A DNA stretch of 64,000 nucleotides from Natrarchaeobaculum sulfurireducens (lineage in GTDB: Archaea > Halobacteriota > Halobacteria > Halobacteriales > Natrialbaceae). Position 1 is the first letter of the stretch. Each line of letters starts with the position of its first letter. A model generated the notes under the pieces. The model made no database searches. It saw only the letters and a program-made list of their open reading frames with translations, and was not told where the DNA came from. Where the stretch lies: assembly GCF_003430825.1 (NCBI RefSeq), contig NZ_CP024047.1, positions 2,790,001 through 2,854,000 on the forward strand, given 5' to 3'. Made by a program: the position numbers and the translations under genes. Shown in pieces: positions 52,406-56,186 of the stretch.

Positions 52406-54133
52406 TCAGTCGGCGCGGCCGGTTCGCTCTGTCGTCACGAATCTCGAGAGGTCGATCTCGGTCTCGAGGTTGGCCGCCGACAGCGACTCGTGTGGCCGAT
52501 TGACGACGATGTCGCCTGCAGTACGGTCGCCGACACCGGGGATCGCCGTGAGTTCGTCCATCGACGCCGCGTTGAGATCGAGCGGATACGGGACGCCGGT
52601 GACCGACCGGAAGCCGTGGTCGACGACGGCGACGTCGATCGTCCGCCCGAGTTCGCGCTCGCCAGGGATACCCACGAGCAGCGGGTACGTTCCGAGCTGG
52701 CGGCCGAAGGTCGTCCCGTCCTGGTGATACTCGAGGTGGACGTCCGGCAAAACGGTTCCCGGCGGCGAAACCCGCTCGAGCATCGGGTTGTCGATCTCCT
52801 CGCGAACCTGGCGTTTGTACTGTTTGAACAGTTTCTTGTGCTCTCGTGCGATTTCAGCGCCCGTCTCGTTCATCTTCGTTCCGGCGAAGGCCATCACCTG
52901 GCGAATGTTCACCCGACGGAGCATGTAGCCCTCGTCGTAGACGCGTCGGAGGAACTCGAGGTTGCGCTCGTAGGTCTCCTCGCGTTCGCCTTTGAGGCCG
53001 TGGAGGAGGTTGATTCCGGGCAAGAGTTTGGGTAATCGACGTGGCGCGTCGTCACCGAACGAGGGGCCCGTTCGCGGCTCATCTCCGGGTCGCCAGCCGG
53101 CTGCCTCGTTGACGATCCGTACGGCTTCGAAACACTCGTCGGCGGTGACGTTCAGGTCGTTTTGCTCCTGGACGACGGGATCTGCCGACTCGAGGCCGAA
53201 GGCGGCCGTATCGCCGGGCGTGTTGTGCTCGGCGATGATCCGGAGTCCCTCGCGACTCTGCTCGGGCCACTCGACGACGGTGATCGGGTTGACGTTGTCG
53301 AGGTGGAGCGTCTCGAGGTCGGGGGCGACAGCTCGAATCCCACTGTACAGCTCCCGGAGTGCGTCTGGGTTCGGTGCTTCGCCGTCGCCGCCGTAAGCCA
53401 GGATGTCGGCCTGTCTGCCGAGTCGAAAGTGTTTGACGCCGTAGTCCGAGAGGGCGTCGACTTCGGCGACGACGGTCTCGGGCGGTCGAAACGAGGGGTT
53501 GCCGTACAGCGGTTCGGTACAGAACGAACAGCGGTAGGCACAGCCCCGTGAAGTCTCGAGTTCGGCGATCAGGTAGTCGGGGTGATTGGGGTGTTGCTCG
53601 ACGACGAACGCCCCCTCGCGCGCCCACCGAGTGACCTCCTCGACGTCGCGCATGCGGTTGTTGAATCCCTCGAGGCCGCTCTCGACGAGGTCGAAGACGG
53701 CGGCCTCGGCGTCGCCTTTCGCGACGAAATCGAAATCGAGGTCCTGGCGTTCGGTTTCGGTGGCCCCCTCGTTGGCGTCGCCGACGCCGAACTTCACGGG
53801 CCCGCCCATCAGGGAGGTCCCGCTTGCGGTCCAGGCCAGTTCCCTGACCTCGTCGGGTTCTGCGGGCGTCCCGCCGACGTACTTGCCGGGGACGGTCATT
53901 CCGCCGAGATAGACCAGCAGGTCGGCCTCGTCGACGTCGCGCCAGCGGTCGGGTTCGTCGCGCAGACCGTCGATCGTGTGATAGGTGATTCGCTCGCGCG
54001 GAACGCCCGCGTCGACGAGCGCTCCCGCCGTGTACCGCGGATACGTCGAGACGTACGGTGGCACCCCGAAGTGTGCTGGCTCGTCGACGTAGCCGTCGAC
54101 GATCGTCACCGACAGGGTCTCGGGGTCAGTCAT
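52406..54133 (-). CDS. Radical SAM protein with C-terminal helix-hairpin-helix domain
   Basis: This 575-residue protein has a B12-binding-like N-terminal region (about 10-180), a radical SAM core with the cluster motif C-A-Y-R-C-S-F-C (about 210), G-L-E-S-A-D and L-L-H-G-L-K-G segments, and a C-terminal helix-hairpin-helix (about 520-560; LNAASMDELTAIPGVGDRTA). Family members are related to methylthiotransferase- or B12-dependent radical enzymes, and the HhH suggests nucleic-acid substrates. The downstream TRAM gene is 144 bases away on the same strand. The reaction is not predictable. Confidence 0.85.
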   Translation of the reverse strand: MTDPETLSVTIVDGYVDEPAHFGVPPYVSTYPRYTAGALVDAGVPRERITYHTIDGLRDEPDRWRDVDEADLLVYLGGMTVPGKYVGGTPAEPDEVRELAWTASGTSLMGGPVKFGVGDANEGATETERQDLDFDFVAKGDAEAAVFDLVESGLEGFNNRMRDVEEVTRWAREGAFVVEQHPNHPDYLIAELETSRGCAYRCSFCTEPLYGNPSFRPPETVVAEVDALSDYGVKHFRLGRQADILAYGGDGEAPNPDALRELYSGIRAVAPDLETLHLDNVNPITVVEWPEQSREGLRIIAEHNTPGDTAAFGLESADPVVQEQNDLNVTADECFEAVRIVNEAAGWRPGDEPRTGPSFGDDAPRRLPKLLPGINLLHGLKGEREETYERNLEFLRRVYDEGYMLRRVNIRQVMAFAGTKMNETGAEIAREHKKLFKQYKRQVREEIDNPMLERVSPPGTVLPDVHLEYHQDGTTFGRQLGTYPLLVGIPGERELGRTIDVAVVDHGFRSVTGVPYPLDLNAASMDELTAIPGVGDRTAGDIVVNRPHESLSAANLETEIDLSRFVTTERTGRAD

Positions 54134-54481: not shown

Positions 54482-55213
54482 GTGTTCGACATCAGCACGA
54501 TCTACCTCGTTTCGGGTGCGACACTCGGGGTCGCAACCCTCGTGTTCGCCACACTCACGCGCCGGATACCCGACACGACGCGTCGGTACGGCGTCGTGAC
54601 GGTCGTCGCGGTGGCGAGTATGGCGCTCGCGTACATGGCAATGGCCGGGGACCTGTTGCTCGTCGAGACGACCGGCCAGGATCAATCTGTGGCCAGATTC
54701 ATCGGCTACACCGTCGCCTGGGGAGGGATTGTCCTTCTCACCGGTGTGGTTTCCGGTTGTGGGAGGGCAAATACCATCGCTCTGTTCGTCGCCATCTGCA
54801 TCACGCTGTGGGGATCGTTCGCCGGGTGGCTCGTCTCGGGTATCCTCGAGCTCGCACTCACGGCCGTGACCATCGGCGGACTCGCGGCGGTTACGTACTT
54901 GTTGCTCGGGCCGATCCAGCGAGCGGCCTCGAACGAGAGCGGAGACCGGATGCTACTGTACGGAAAGCTCAAACACCTGCTGTTGCTCGCGTGGCTCGTC
55001 CTCATGATCTTGAGCGTCACCTCCGAGCAGAACCTCGCACTGCTGGATACGTTCGTCGGACAACTCGTCGCGTCGTACGTCGACGTGATCCTCTTTCTCG
55101 GCTTCGGCGGGTTCGTCTTCAACAACATCGGTGCGTTCGAGGACGCGACGGACGACGCCCCGTCGACGACGACCGAAAACGCCAGACCCGACGGCCTCGA
55201 GACCCCGCAGTGA
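54482..55213 (+). CDS. Microbial rhodopsin-like protein lacking the retinal-binding lysine
   Basis: This 243-residue protein has seven hydrophobic helices and aligns by eye with bacteriorhodopsin from helix A (TIYLVSGATLGVATLVF) to helix G. R72 in A-R-F-I-G-Y matches Arg82 of bacteriorhodopsin; the following position corresponding to Asp85 is G75. In helix G the counterpart of D-V-S-A-K-V-G-F-G reads D201-V-I-L-F205-L-G-F-G, so Asp212 is kept and the Schiff-base lysine (Lys216) is phenylalanine. Covalent retinal binding is therefore not expected. Function is unknown. It starts at GTG with SD. Confidence 0.82.
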   Translation: MFDISTIYLVSGATLGVATLVFATLTRRIPDTTRRYGVVTVVAVASMALAYMAMAGDLLLVETTGQDQSVARFIGYTVAWGGIVLLTGVVSGCGRANTIALFVAICITLWGSFAGWLVSGILELALTAVTIGGLAAVTYLLLGPIQRAASNESGDRMLLYGKLKHLLLLAWLVLMILSVTSEQNLALLDTFVGQLVASYVDVILFLGFGGFVFNNIGAFEDATDDAPSTTTENARPDGLETPQ

Positions 55214-55284: not shown

Positions 55285-55443
55285 ATGCCACCGACGGAAG
55301 AGGTCGTCTGTACCGACGAGGACTGCTTTCTGGACCTGTTCGAGACCCACTACACGTACGACGTCCCCGACGGCTTCGACGTCACCGCACTCTCGTGTCC
55401 AGTCTGTGGAGGGACTGACTGTCTCGAGCCGGTCGACCTGTAG
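55285..55443 (+). CDS. Small CPxCG-type zinc-finger protein
   Basis: This 52-residue protein contains C-T-D-E-D-C and C-P-V-C-G-G-T-D-C with a closing L-E-P-V-D-L, a conserved haloarchaeal small zinc-finger pattern (DUF7559-like). It starts MPPTEEVVC at ATG 55285, 71 bases after the rhodopsin-like gene on the same strand. Its small size and invariant cysteines point to a structural or interaction role. No direct functional information is available to me. Confidence 0.75.
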   Translation: MPPTEEVVCTDEDCFLDLFETHYTYDVPDGFDVTALSCPVCGGTDCLEPVDL

Positions 55444-55599: not shown

Positions 55600-55677
55600 A
55601 TGTCTCGCGCGTACAGCCTGGTCCCCCTCCAGTTCCCGGCGAGCGCCGCCTGCGCCGCCGGAGGTGAAACGGAGTGA
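55600..55677 (+). CDS. Possible 25-residue leader ORF overlapping the Hsp20-like start
   Basis: This frame (MSRAYSLVPLQFP, continuing to E25) ends with TGA at 55675-55677, overlapping the GTG of the next gene by four bases (GTGA). A TATA-like CACTAAAG sits about 28 bases before the ATG at 55600, fitting a leaderless start. The next gene also has a strong Shine-Dalgarno site inside this frame. The ORF may be a coupling leader or may not be translated. Confidence 0.4.
   Translation: MSRAYSLVPLQFPASAACAAGGETE
55660..55667 (+). promoter_or_regulatory. Strong Shine-Dalgarno site for the Hsp20-like gene
   Basis: GGAGGTGA matches the full anti-Shine-Dalgarno sequence and ends six bases before the GTG at 55674. 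It decides that start codon. Confidence 0.65.
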
Positions 55678-56186
55678 GTCTCAAAGACCTCAAACAGTCG
55701 GTCGGAAACGCACTCTATCGTCAGCTCGGCCGGGCGAACGGCCACATCCAGAACACCCGGTCGCTGCCCGTCGACGTACTCGAAGACGACAGCTCCTATC
55801 TCGTCGTCTTCGACGCACCCGGTACGGAACCCGACGACGTCCAGGTCAGATACCTCGAGGGCCGCGTCAAGATCAGACTCGACCGATTCCGTCAGTTCCG
55901 GGATCGCTTCGAGATGCGATTTCCCGGTCGAGGGATGACCCTCGACGGCGAGGCCGAACTGCCGGCGGACGCAGCCGTCGATCCCGATGCAGGAACTGCC
56001 CGACTCTCGGAGACGGGAACGTTGCGCATCGAGATCCCGAAAGAAACCGCGATCGACGACGGCGAGGTCGACCTCGAGCACGCCGGCGAGAAGAACGGAC
56101 CGAGTGACGACGGTAACGATCGCGAATCACCAGACACCGAAGCGACGTCGGGTTCGAACCCCGGCGAAGTCGCCGTCGACGACTGA
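55674..56186 (+). CDS. Hsp20-like small heat-shock protein-related
   Basis: This 170-residue protein has an alpha-crystallin-like beta-sandwich core at about 28-125: L-P-V-D-V-L-E-D-D-S-S-Y-L-V-V, then D-A-P-G-T-E-P-D-D-V-Q-V and the closing G-T-L-R-I-E-I-P, which resembles the I-x-I anchor. The C-terminal 45 residues are acidic and disordered. It differs enough from classical Hsp20 that its chaperone activity is unproved. It begins with a GTG having a strong SD site and is preceded by a possible leader ORF. Confidence 0.8.
   Translation: MSLKDLKQSVGNALYRQLGRANGHIQNTRSLPVDVLEDDSSYLVVFDAPGTEPDDVQVRYLEGRVKIRLDRFRQFRDRFEMRFPGRGMTLDGEAELPADAAVDPDAGTARLSETGTLRIEIPKETAIDDGEVDLEHAGEKNGPSDDGNDRESPDTEATSGSNPGEVAVDD

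Follow-up and report, generated by a model that had tools for sequence, protein, structure and literature searches.

A lysine-less opsin of Natrarchaeobaculum sulfurireducens as a candidate retinal-free receptor subunit, and a lone HtrII-type transducer in the same genome

The 64,000-nucleotide stretch of Natrarchaeobaculum sulfurireducens DNA analysed here (contig NZ_CP024047.1, positions 2,790,001 to 2,854,000), referred to below as the window, encodes a lysine-less opsin, a group B opsin-related protein (ORP) of 243 aa (54482..55213, + strand), with no transducer gene beside it. We see about an even chance that this protein is a retinal-free receptor subunit and that an HtrII-type transducer pairs with it in trans, the likeliest partner being an intact transducer encoded about 560 kb away, the own ORP of which has decayed. 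On the simplest reading of the sequence, the window ORP would derive from a sensory rhodopsin whose photochemical parts are gone and whose transducer-facing parts remain.

Lysine-less opsins of haloarchaea have been described before. According to the accessible text of Becker et al. (2016; PMC4915679), 48 of 170 haloarchaeal opsins are lysine-less and were named ORPs; group A, mainly from Halorubrum, carries arginine in place of the lysine, and group B, from Natrialba and relatives, carries leucine or another hydrophobic residue. The same text reports that a gene for a HAMP/MCP transducer adjoins 15 of the 16 group A and 17 of the 32 group B genes, that heat-shock genes lie near some unlinked ORPs, that transcription was seen for eight of the nine ORPs tested, and that the lysine losses in fungal opsin-related proteins and bacterial Rh-noK are independent of those in haloarchaea. 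As judged from its sequence, the window protein belongs to group B of this described family and is not a new kind; the idea that it is a rarity is not supported, given the 48 sequences published in 2016. What is added here is the single 86-member clade, a subclade with arginine or histidine at the lysine position, the counts of orphan genes, the probable insertion of the window gene, the reciprocal orphan, and purifying selection.

Fold and residues of the window protein

The open reading frame has a GTG start and no internal stops. The protein matches Pfam PF01036 (Bac_rhodopsin) with 45.3 bits (E 9e-12, cut-off 24.6), and its top PDB match in phmmer is sensory rhodopsin II (SRII) of Natronomonas pharaonis (E 4e-12, residues 3-213). 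The resemblance to bacteriorhodopsin (BR) first reported for helices A-C and G stands as an opsin match; it spans all seven helices, however, and the window ORP is closer to SRII than to the template originally chosen. The AlphaFold2 model, built on a 59-row alignment, has seven helices (pLDDT 90.9, pTM 0.86), and its best PDB matches in Foldseek are SRII and SRII/HtrII complexes with TM scores (target) of about 0.90-0.93. Structure prediction, proposed earlier as a check, thus gives the rhodopsin fold.

Helix G aligns with that of SRII without any indel (phmmer alignment), which places F205 (codon 55094..55096, + strand, as for all codons below) opposite the retinal lysine, Lys205 of SRII and Lys216 of BR. 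In the multiple alignment, in which the key positions of the BR numbering were checked, Asp85, the proton acceptor, corresponds to G75 (54704..54706), and the proton-pump residues D85, D96 and K216 have become G, L and F. The retinal-pocket residues W138, Y185 and W189 are replaced by T, L and S, and W86 by Y76. Conserved positions include Y51 (Tyr57; 54632..54634), invariant in transducer-less ORPs with glycine at position 85, R72 (Arg82; 54695..54697), W182 and D201 (Asp212; 55082..55084). The initial annotation was therefore correct on the loss of both functional residues and on the retention of the arginine and the aspartate. Y199 (55076..55078) corresponds to SRII Tyr199, which forms a hydrogen bond with the transducer (accessible text of PMC4915679), and is invariant in all ORPs examined, linked and orphan alike. 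D189 (55046..55048) occupies the position of SRII T189, a transducer contact according to the same text, and is usually D in ORPs. Compared with the SRII/HtrII system, the window ORP shares the fold (TM about 0.9) and the Tyr199 contact position; it differs in lacking the retinal lysine, the Asp85 equivalent and an adjacent transducer gene, in its altered pocket, and in overall sequence (about 25% identity).

In the genome that holds the window (G000, 3.79 Mb), PF01036 genes number five: three keep the lysine (the SRII-like L001, the halorhodopsin-like L002, and L003) and two are lysine-less; the second lysine-less gene (C3:862303-862968) is likewise without a transducer. L003 (G000:C3:504565-505206) is a long-branch sensory rhodopsin with its own adjoining MCP gene. 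Since the genome encodes three lysine-keeping opsins, retinal is probably made in the cell, and together with the retained R82, D212 and W182 this would suit a photoreceptor which binds retinal or carotenoid non-covalently. The loss of the pocket aromatics W138, W189 and Y185, the change of W86 to Y, and the result that two purified ORPs mixed with retinal gave no absorption at 480-580 nm (accessible text of PMC4915679) make such binding improbable. The presence of three canonical opsins might also suggest that the window ORP hetero-oligomerises with them as a regulatory partner, as was speculated for bacterial Rh-noK (PMC10308929). Rh-noK and the fungal opsin-related proteins, compared here by description only, share the rhodopsin fold without the Schiff-base lysine. 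We found no genomic link between the window ORP and any canonical opsin, and eight species carry ORPs with no canonical opsin according to the accessible text of Becker et al. (PMC4915679), so that a regulatory partnership appears very unlikely. Among the roles suggested in the initial annotation, it is the light-independent sensor that the evidence favours.

The clade of lysine-less opsins and selection on the window gene

Searches for relatives sharing the lysine loss covered 125 genomes of the family and 391 of the class and yielded 86 distinct lysine-less sequences for analysis, all 86 without lysine at the retinal-lysine position. A scan of genome contigs with the window protein alone returned only one close relative, and among the relatives that carry a name a Natrialbaceae MAG came closest. 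In a quick maximum-likelihood search without bootstrap, run with 25 or 26 canonical opsins, the 86 sequences come out as a single clade (SH-aLRT 99 with 25 canonical opsins and two long or gappy rows omitted). The window ORP groups with two orthologues of its genus (83% and 63% identity) inside a 52-row clade with hydrophobic residues at position 216 (96), itself nested in a 72-row clade (98); the placement in group B refers to a tree built without Becker's own sequences.

In these 72 rows, position 216 is occupied by L (33), R (13), V (9), F (6), H (5), I (4), M (1) and A (1). We call the clade a widened group B because the accessible published description covers hydrophobic residues only (PMC4915679) and an R/H-216 subclade is included here. 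The 18 of 72 rows with R or H mostly keep Asp85, have Tyr185 throughout, and are all linked to transducers, most of which are about 740-800 aa long and have their two membrane helices some 240-260 residues apart. The arginine carriers on the group B side (L033, L035, L036, L039, L041, L094, L095, L097-L099, L101, L102 and L106) have Arg82, Asp212 and mostly Asp85, and all are paired with long transducers, with a membrane-helix spacing of about 250 residues where measured. Histidine is found at this position in L032, L096, L103, L105 and L107. Group A comprises 14 rows, all with R216; its mostly Halorubrum members are lysine-less, belong to the same clade, keep Y199 and are transducer-linked, and differ from the window ORP in the K216 to R change, in the loss of R82 and Y57, and in their deep separate branch. 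With the rest of group B the window ORP has in common the haloarchaeal origin, a hydrophobic residue at K216, the conserved Y51, R72, Y199 and D189, the lost pocket aromatics and, as in some other members, a place near heat-shock genes with no transducer linked. It stands apart in having F at 216, where L is commoner, and in its solitary position between radical SAM and DUF7559 genes.

Pairwise Nei-Gojobori estimates indicate that the window ORP is under purifying selection, although weaker than that on SRII. Between G000 and G035 its dN/dS is 0.30 (Z 4.5), compared with 0.23 for SRII, 0.06 for the radical SAM gene and 0.14 (Z 6.9) for the lone transducer; between G000 and G034 it is 0.48 (Z 3.7), with 0.26 for SRII and 0.17 for the second ORP. 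The faster evolution relative to SRII in the same genomes, the decay of another ORP of G000, and one species of the genus without the gene at this site could be signs of a paralogue drifting to loss with no present function. We consider drift unlikely, as the frame is intact in three species, both dN/dS values speak against it, and a set of 54 sequences retains R72, Y199 and the glycine at position 85. The earlier suggestion of a selected function rather than decay is thereby strengthened, the lysine loss being common to a large clade and Y57, R82 and the SRII transducer-contact residue Y199 being retained.

The window locus and transducer linkage among ORPs

To the left of the window ORP lies a gene for a radical SAM protein with a helix-hairpin-helix (52406..54133, - strand), which is the left border of an old gene block and outside the ORP system. 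To the right follow a DUF7559 zinc-ribbon-like protein (55285..55443, +), the zinc finger of the initial annotation, and an HSP20-family protein (55674..56186, +), both assigned by Pfam and, from synteny, chance neighbours. The order radical SAM - DUF7559 - HSP20 also exists where no ORP is present, both in other genera within the family and in the congeneric species G036. DUF7559 is near-universal, being found in 122 of the 125 family genomes, in nearly every one as a single copy, and in the radical SAM-HSP20 block where checked. Most simply, the window ORP would be a single gene inserted into this old block, and its neighbours therefore carry no functional information. DUF7559 and HSP20 were considered as functional partners and rejected, DUF7559 being near-universal and the block occurring without the ORP; the zinc-finger neighbour is for the same reasons not borne out as a clue. 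Heat-shock adjacency, offered in the accessible text of Becker et al. (PMC4915679) as a lead on unlinked ORPs, is at this locus explained by the insertion. The flanks searched to the left and right of the window ORP contain no MCP gene, and tblastn found no decayed transducer at the site.

Under a rule requiring an MCP gene on the same strand within 600 bp, 57 of the lysine-less genes analysed are linked and 28 unlinked; the rule misjudges at least one tandem locus (L043_9027), and the numbers are approximate. Start and stop typically overlap in the linked pairs, and linkage has changed at least ten times on the tree. Genes in the flanks were called with a simple home-made caller; for 25 of the 86 ORPs, the window ORP included, the fetched flanks, usually about 5 kb per side, hold no MCP gene; L119 is truncated at a contig end. 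The linked transducers have HAMP and MCP domains, in the short kind the N-terminal 95 residues find HtrII chains as PDB matches (E 8e-16), and HtrII N74 and G83 fall at conserved columns, so that the transducers of ORPs and of SRII are alike in type. A covariation between ORP residue 189 (D or T) and the transducer position close to HtrII E43 (H or Y) is suggestive and seen in few sequences. Several loci are tandem arrays (L042, L043, L069, L071-L074) that combine one or two ORPs with two or three MCP genes, adjoining a recurrent small response-regulator-like gene of about 118 aa.

The many ORPs with no transducer in their flanks, the insertion of the window gene on its own into a block without one, and the several lineages which have lost the transducer with the ORP intact would also be expected if the window ORP bound another membrane or soluble protein and needed no Htr. 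Such arrangements have precedents: Anabaena sensory rhodopsin works by binding another protein, without Htr, and retinal-free bacterio-opsin has been reported to inhibit bacterioruberin synthesis. Motility-unrelated roles for unlinked ORPs were also proposed in the accessible text of Becker et al. (PMC4915679). We rate this as a possibility of a lower order than pairing in trans. Y199 is equally conserved in orphan and linked ORPs, the family genomes with orphan ORPs of this kind all have an ORP-type transducer bar one 85%-complete assembly, and no other neighbour gene recurs beside orphan ORPs across genera in the flanks compared. Short membrane peptides upstream of orphan ORPs were inspected as mini-transducers and nothing convincing was found, the sole peptide relic (in G083) being the 5' end of a deleted transducer.

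A lone transducer and pairing in trans

Among the 23 MCP genes over the Pfam cut-off in G000, one encodes an intact ORP-type transducer of 544 aa (C3:3404006-3405640, equal to L186:7007-8641). Its two helices are spaced as in ORP-linked transducers, and against the profile of these, of which it is itself one row, it reaches 163.5 bits; it is 76% identical to the paired transducer of a congeneric species. The genes around it (MC1 - transducer - prephenate dehydratase and others) match the ORP plus transducer locus of relatives, which is seen in L047 (G034), L055, L079, L082, L087 and L089. Directly beside it, at the position of the ORP in those loci, lies a relic ORP (L186:6740-6985; G000:C3:3403739-3403984) with helices F-G, in-frame stops and a tblastn E of about 2e-14. 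The accessible text of Becker et al. (2016; PMC4915679) makes no mention of a genome in which a relic ORP accompanies a lone transducer of the ORP type.

Broken ORP/transducer pairs occur in several relatives and in both directions. In G035 the ORP is likewise absent and the transducer is 94% identical to that of G000; at a different syntenic locus, the ORP is gone from G080 and G079 and the transducer remains, which brings the lone ORP-type transducers to four genomes in two genera. The opposite loss, with the ORP kept and the transducer missing, is found in G083, G042, G043, G045, G046 and G103, with L059/L060/L083/L085 and L081 among the loci concerned. In G083 (L090:4711-4990) an internally deleted transducer, reduced to about 28 N-terminal codons and a short 3' piece, lies directly upstream of the intact ORP.

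With a cut-off of at least 90 bits with the profile, 27 of the 125 family genomes carry ORP-type transducers, and each of these 27 has an ORP. Conversely, 27 of the 28 genomes with hydrophobic- or His-216 ORPs have such a transducer; the exception is G082 (85% complete), with three orphan ORPs and no ORP-type transducer found. This co-occurrence is mostly trivial because most of it consists of linked pairs, and its informative part is the four genomes keeping lone transducers and lone ORPs. Four genomes in two genera are too few, and we therefore do not take the pattern as statistical proof of pairing in trans.

If the window ORP and the lone transducer form a receptor, helices F and G of the ORP would bind the two-helix membrane part of the transducer, with Y199 contacting the equivalent of HtrII N74. 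A stimulus other than light would move helices F and G, and this movement would switch the HAMP and MCP domains and act through CheA on the flagella. Against the pairing, the lone transducer might act by itself or be coupled to a different receptor, and protein evolution is faster in the window ORP than in SRII (dN/dS 0.30-0.48 versus 0.23-0.26). More tentatively, haloarchaea may possess interchangeable retinal-free receptors with seven helices and interchangeable HtrII-type transducers; their genes would separate, one of a pair could be lost and the survivors would pair in trans. The rhodopsin fold would then underlie a combinatorial system of chemoreceptors, with the window ORP and the lone transducer as one such pair.

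With two transducer-less ORPs and one ORP-type transducer deprived of its ORP, the genome of N. sulfurireducens offers a simple natural test case for the stimulus and the signalling route of ORPs, a question that dates from 2016. Joint signalling by these proteins would show that archaea use the rhodopsin fold as a general receptor, comparable to the opsin-like fold of animal GPCRs, and ligands could then be screened with taxis as the read-out.
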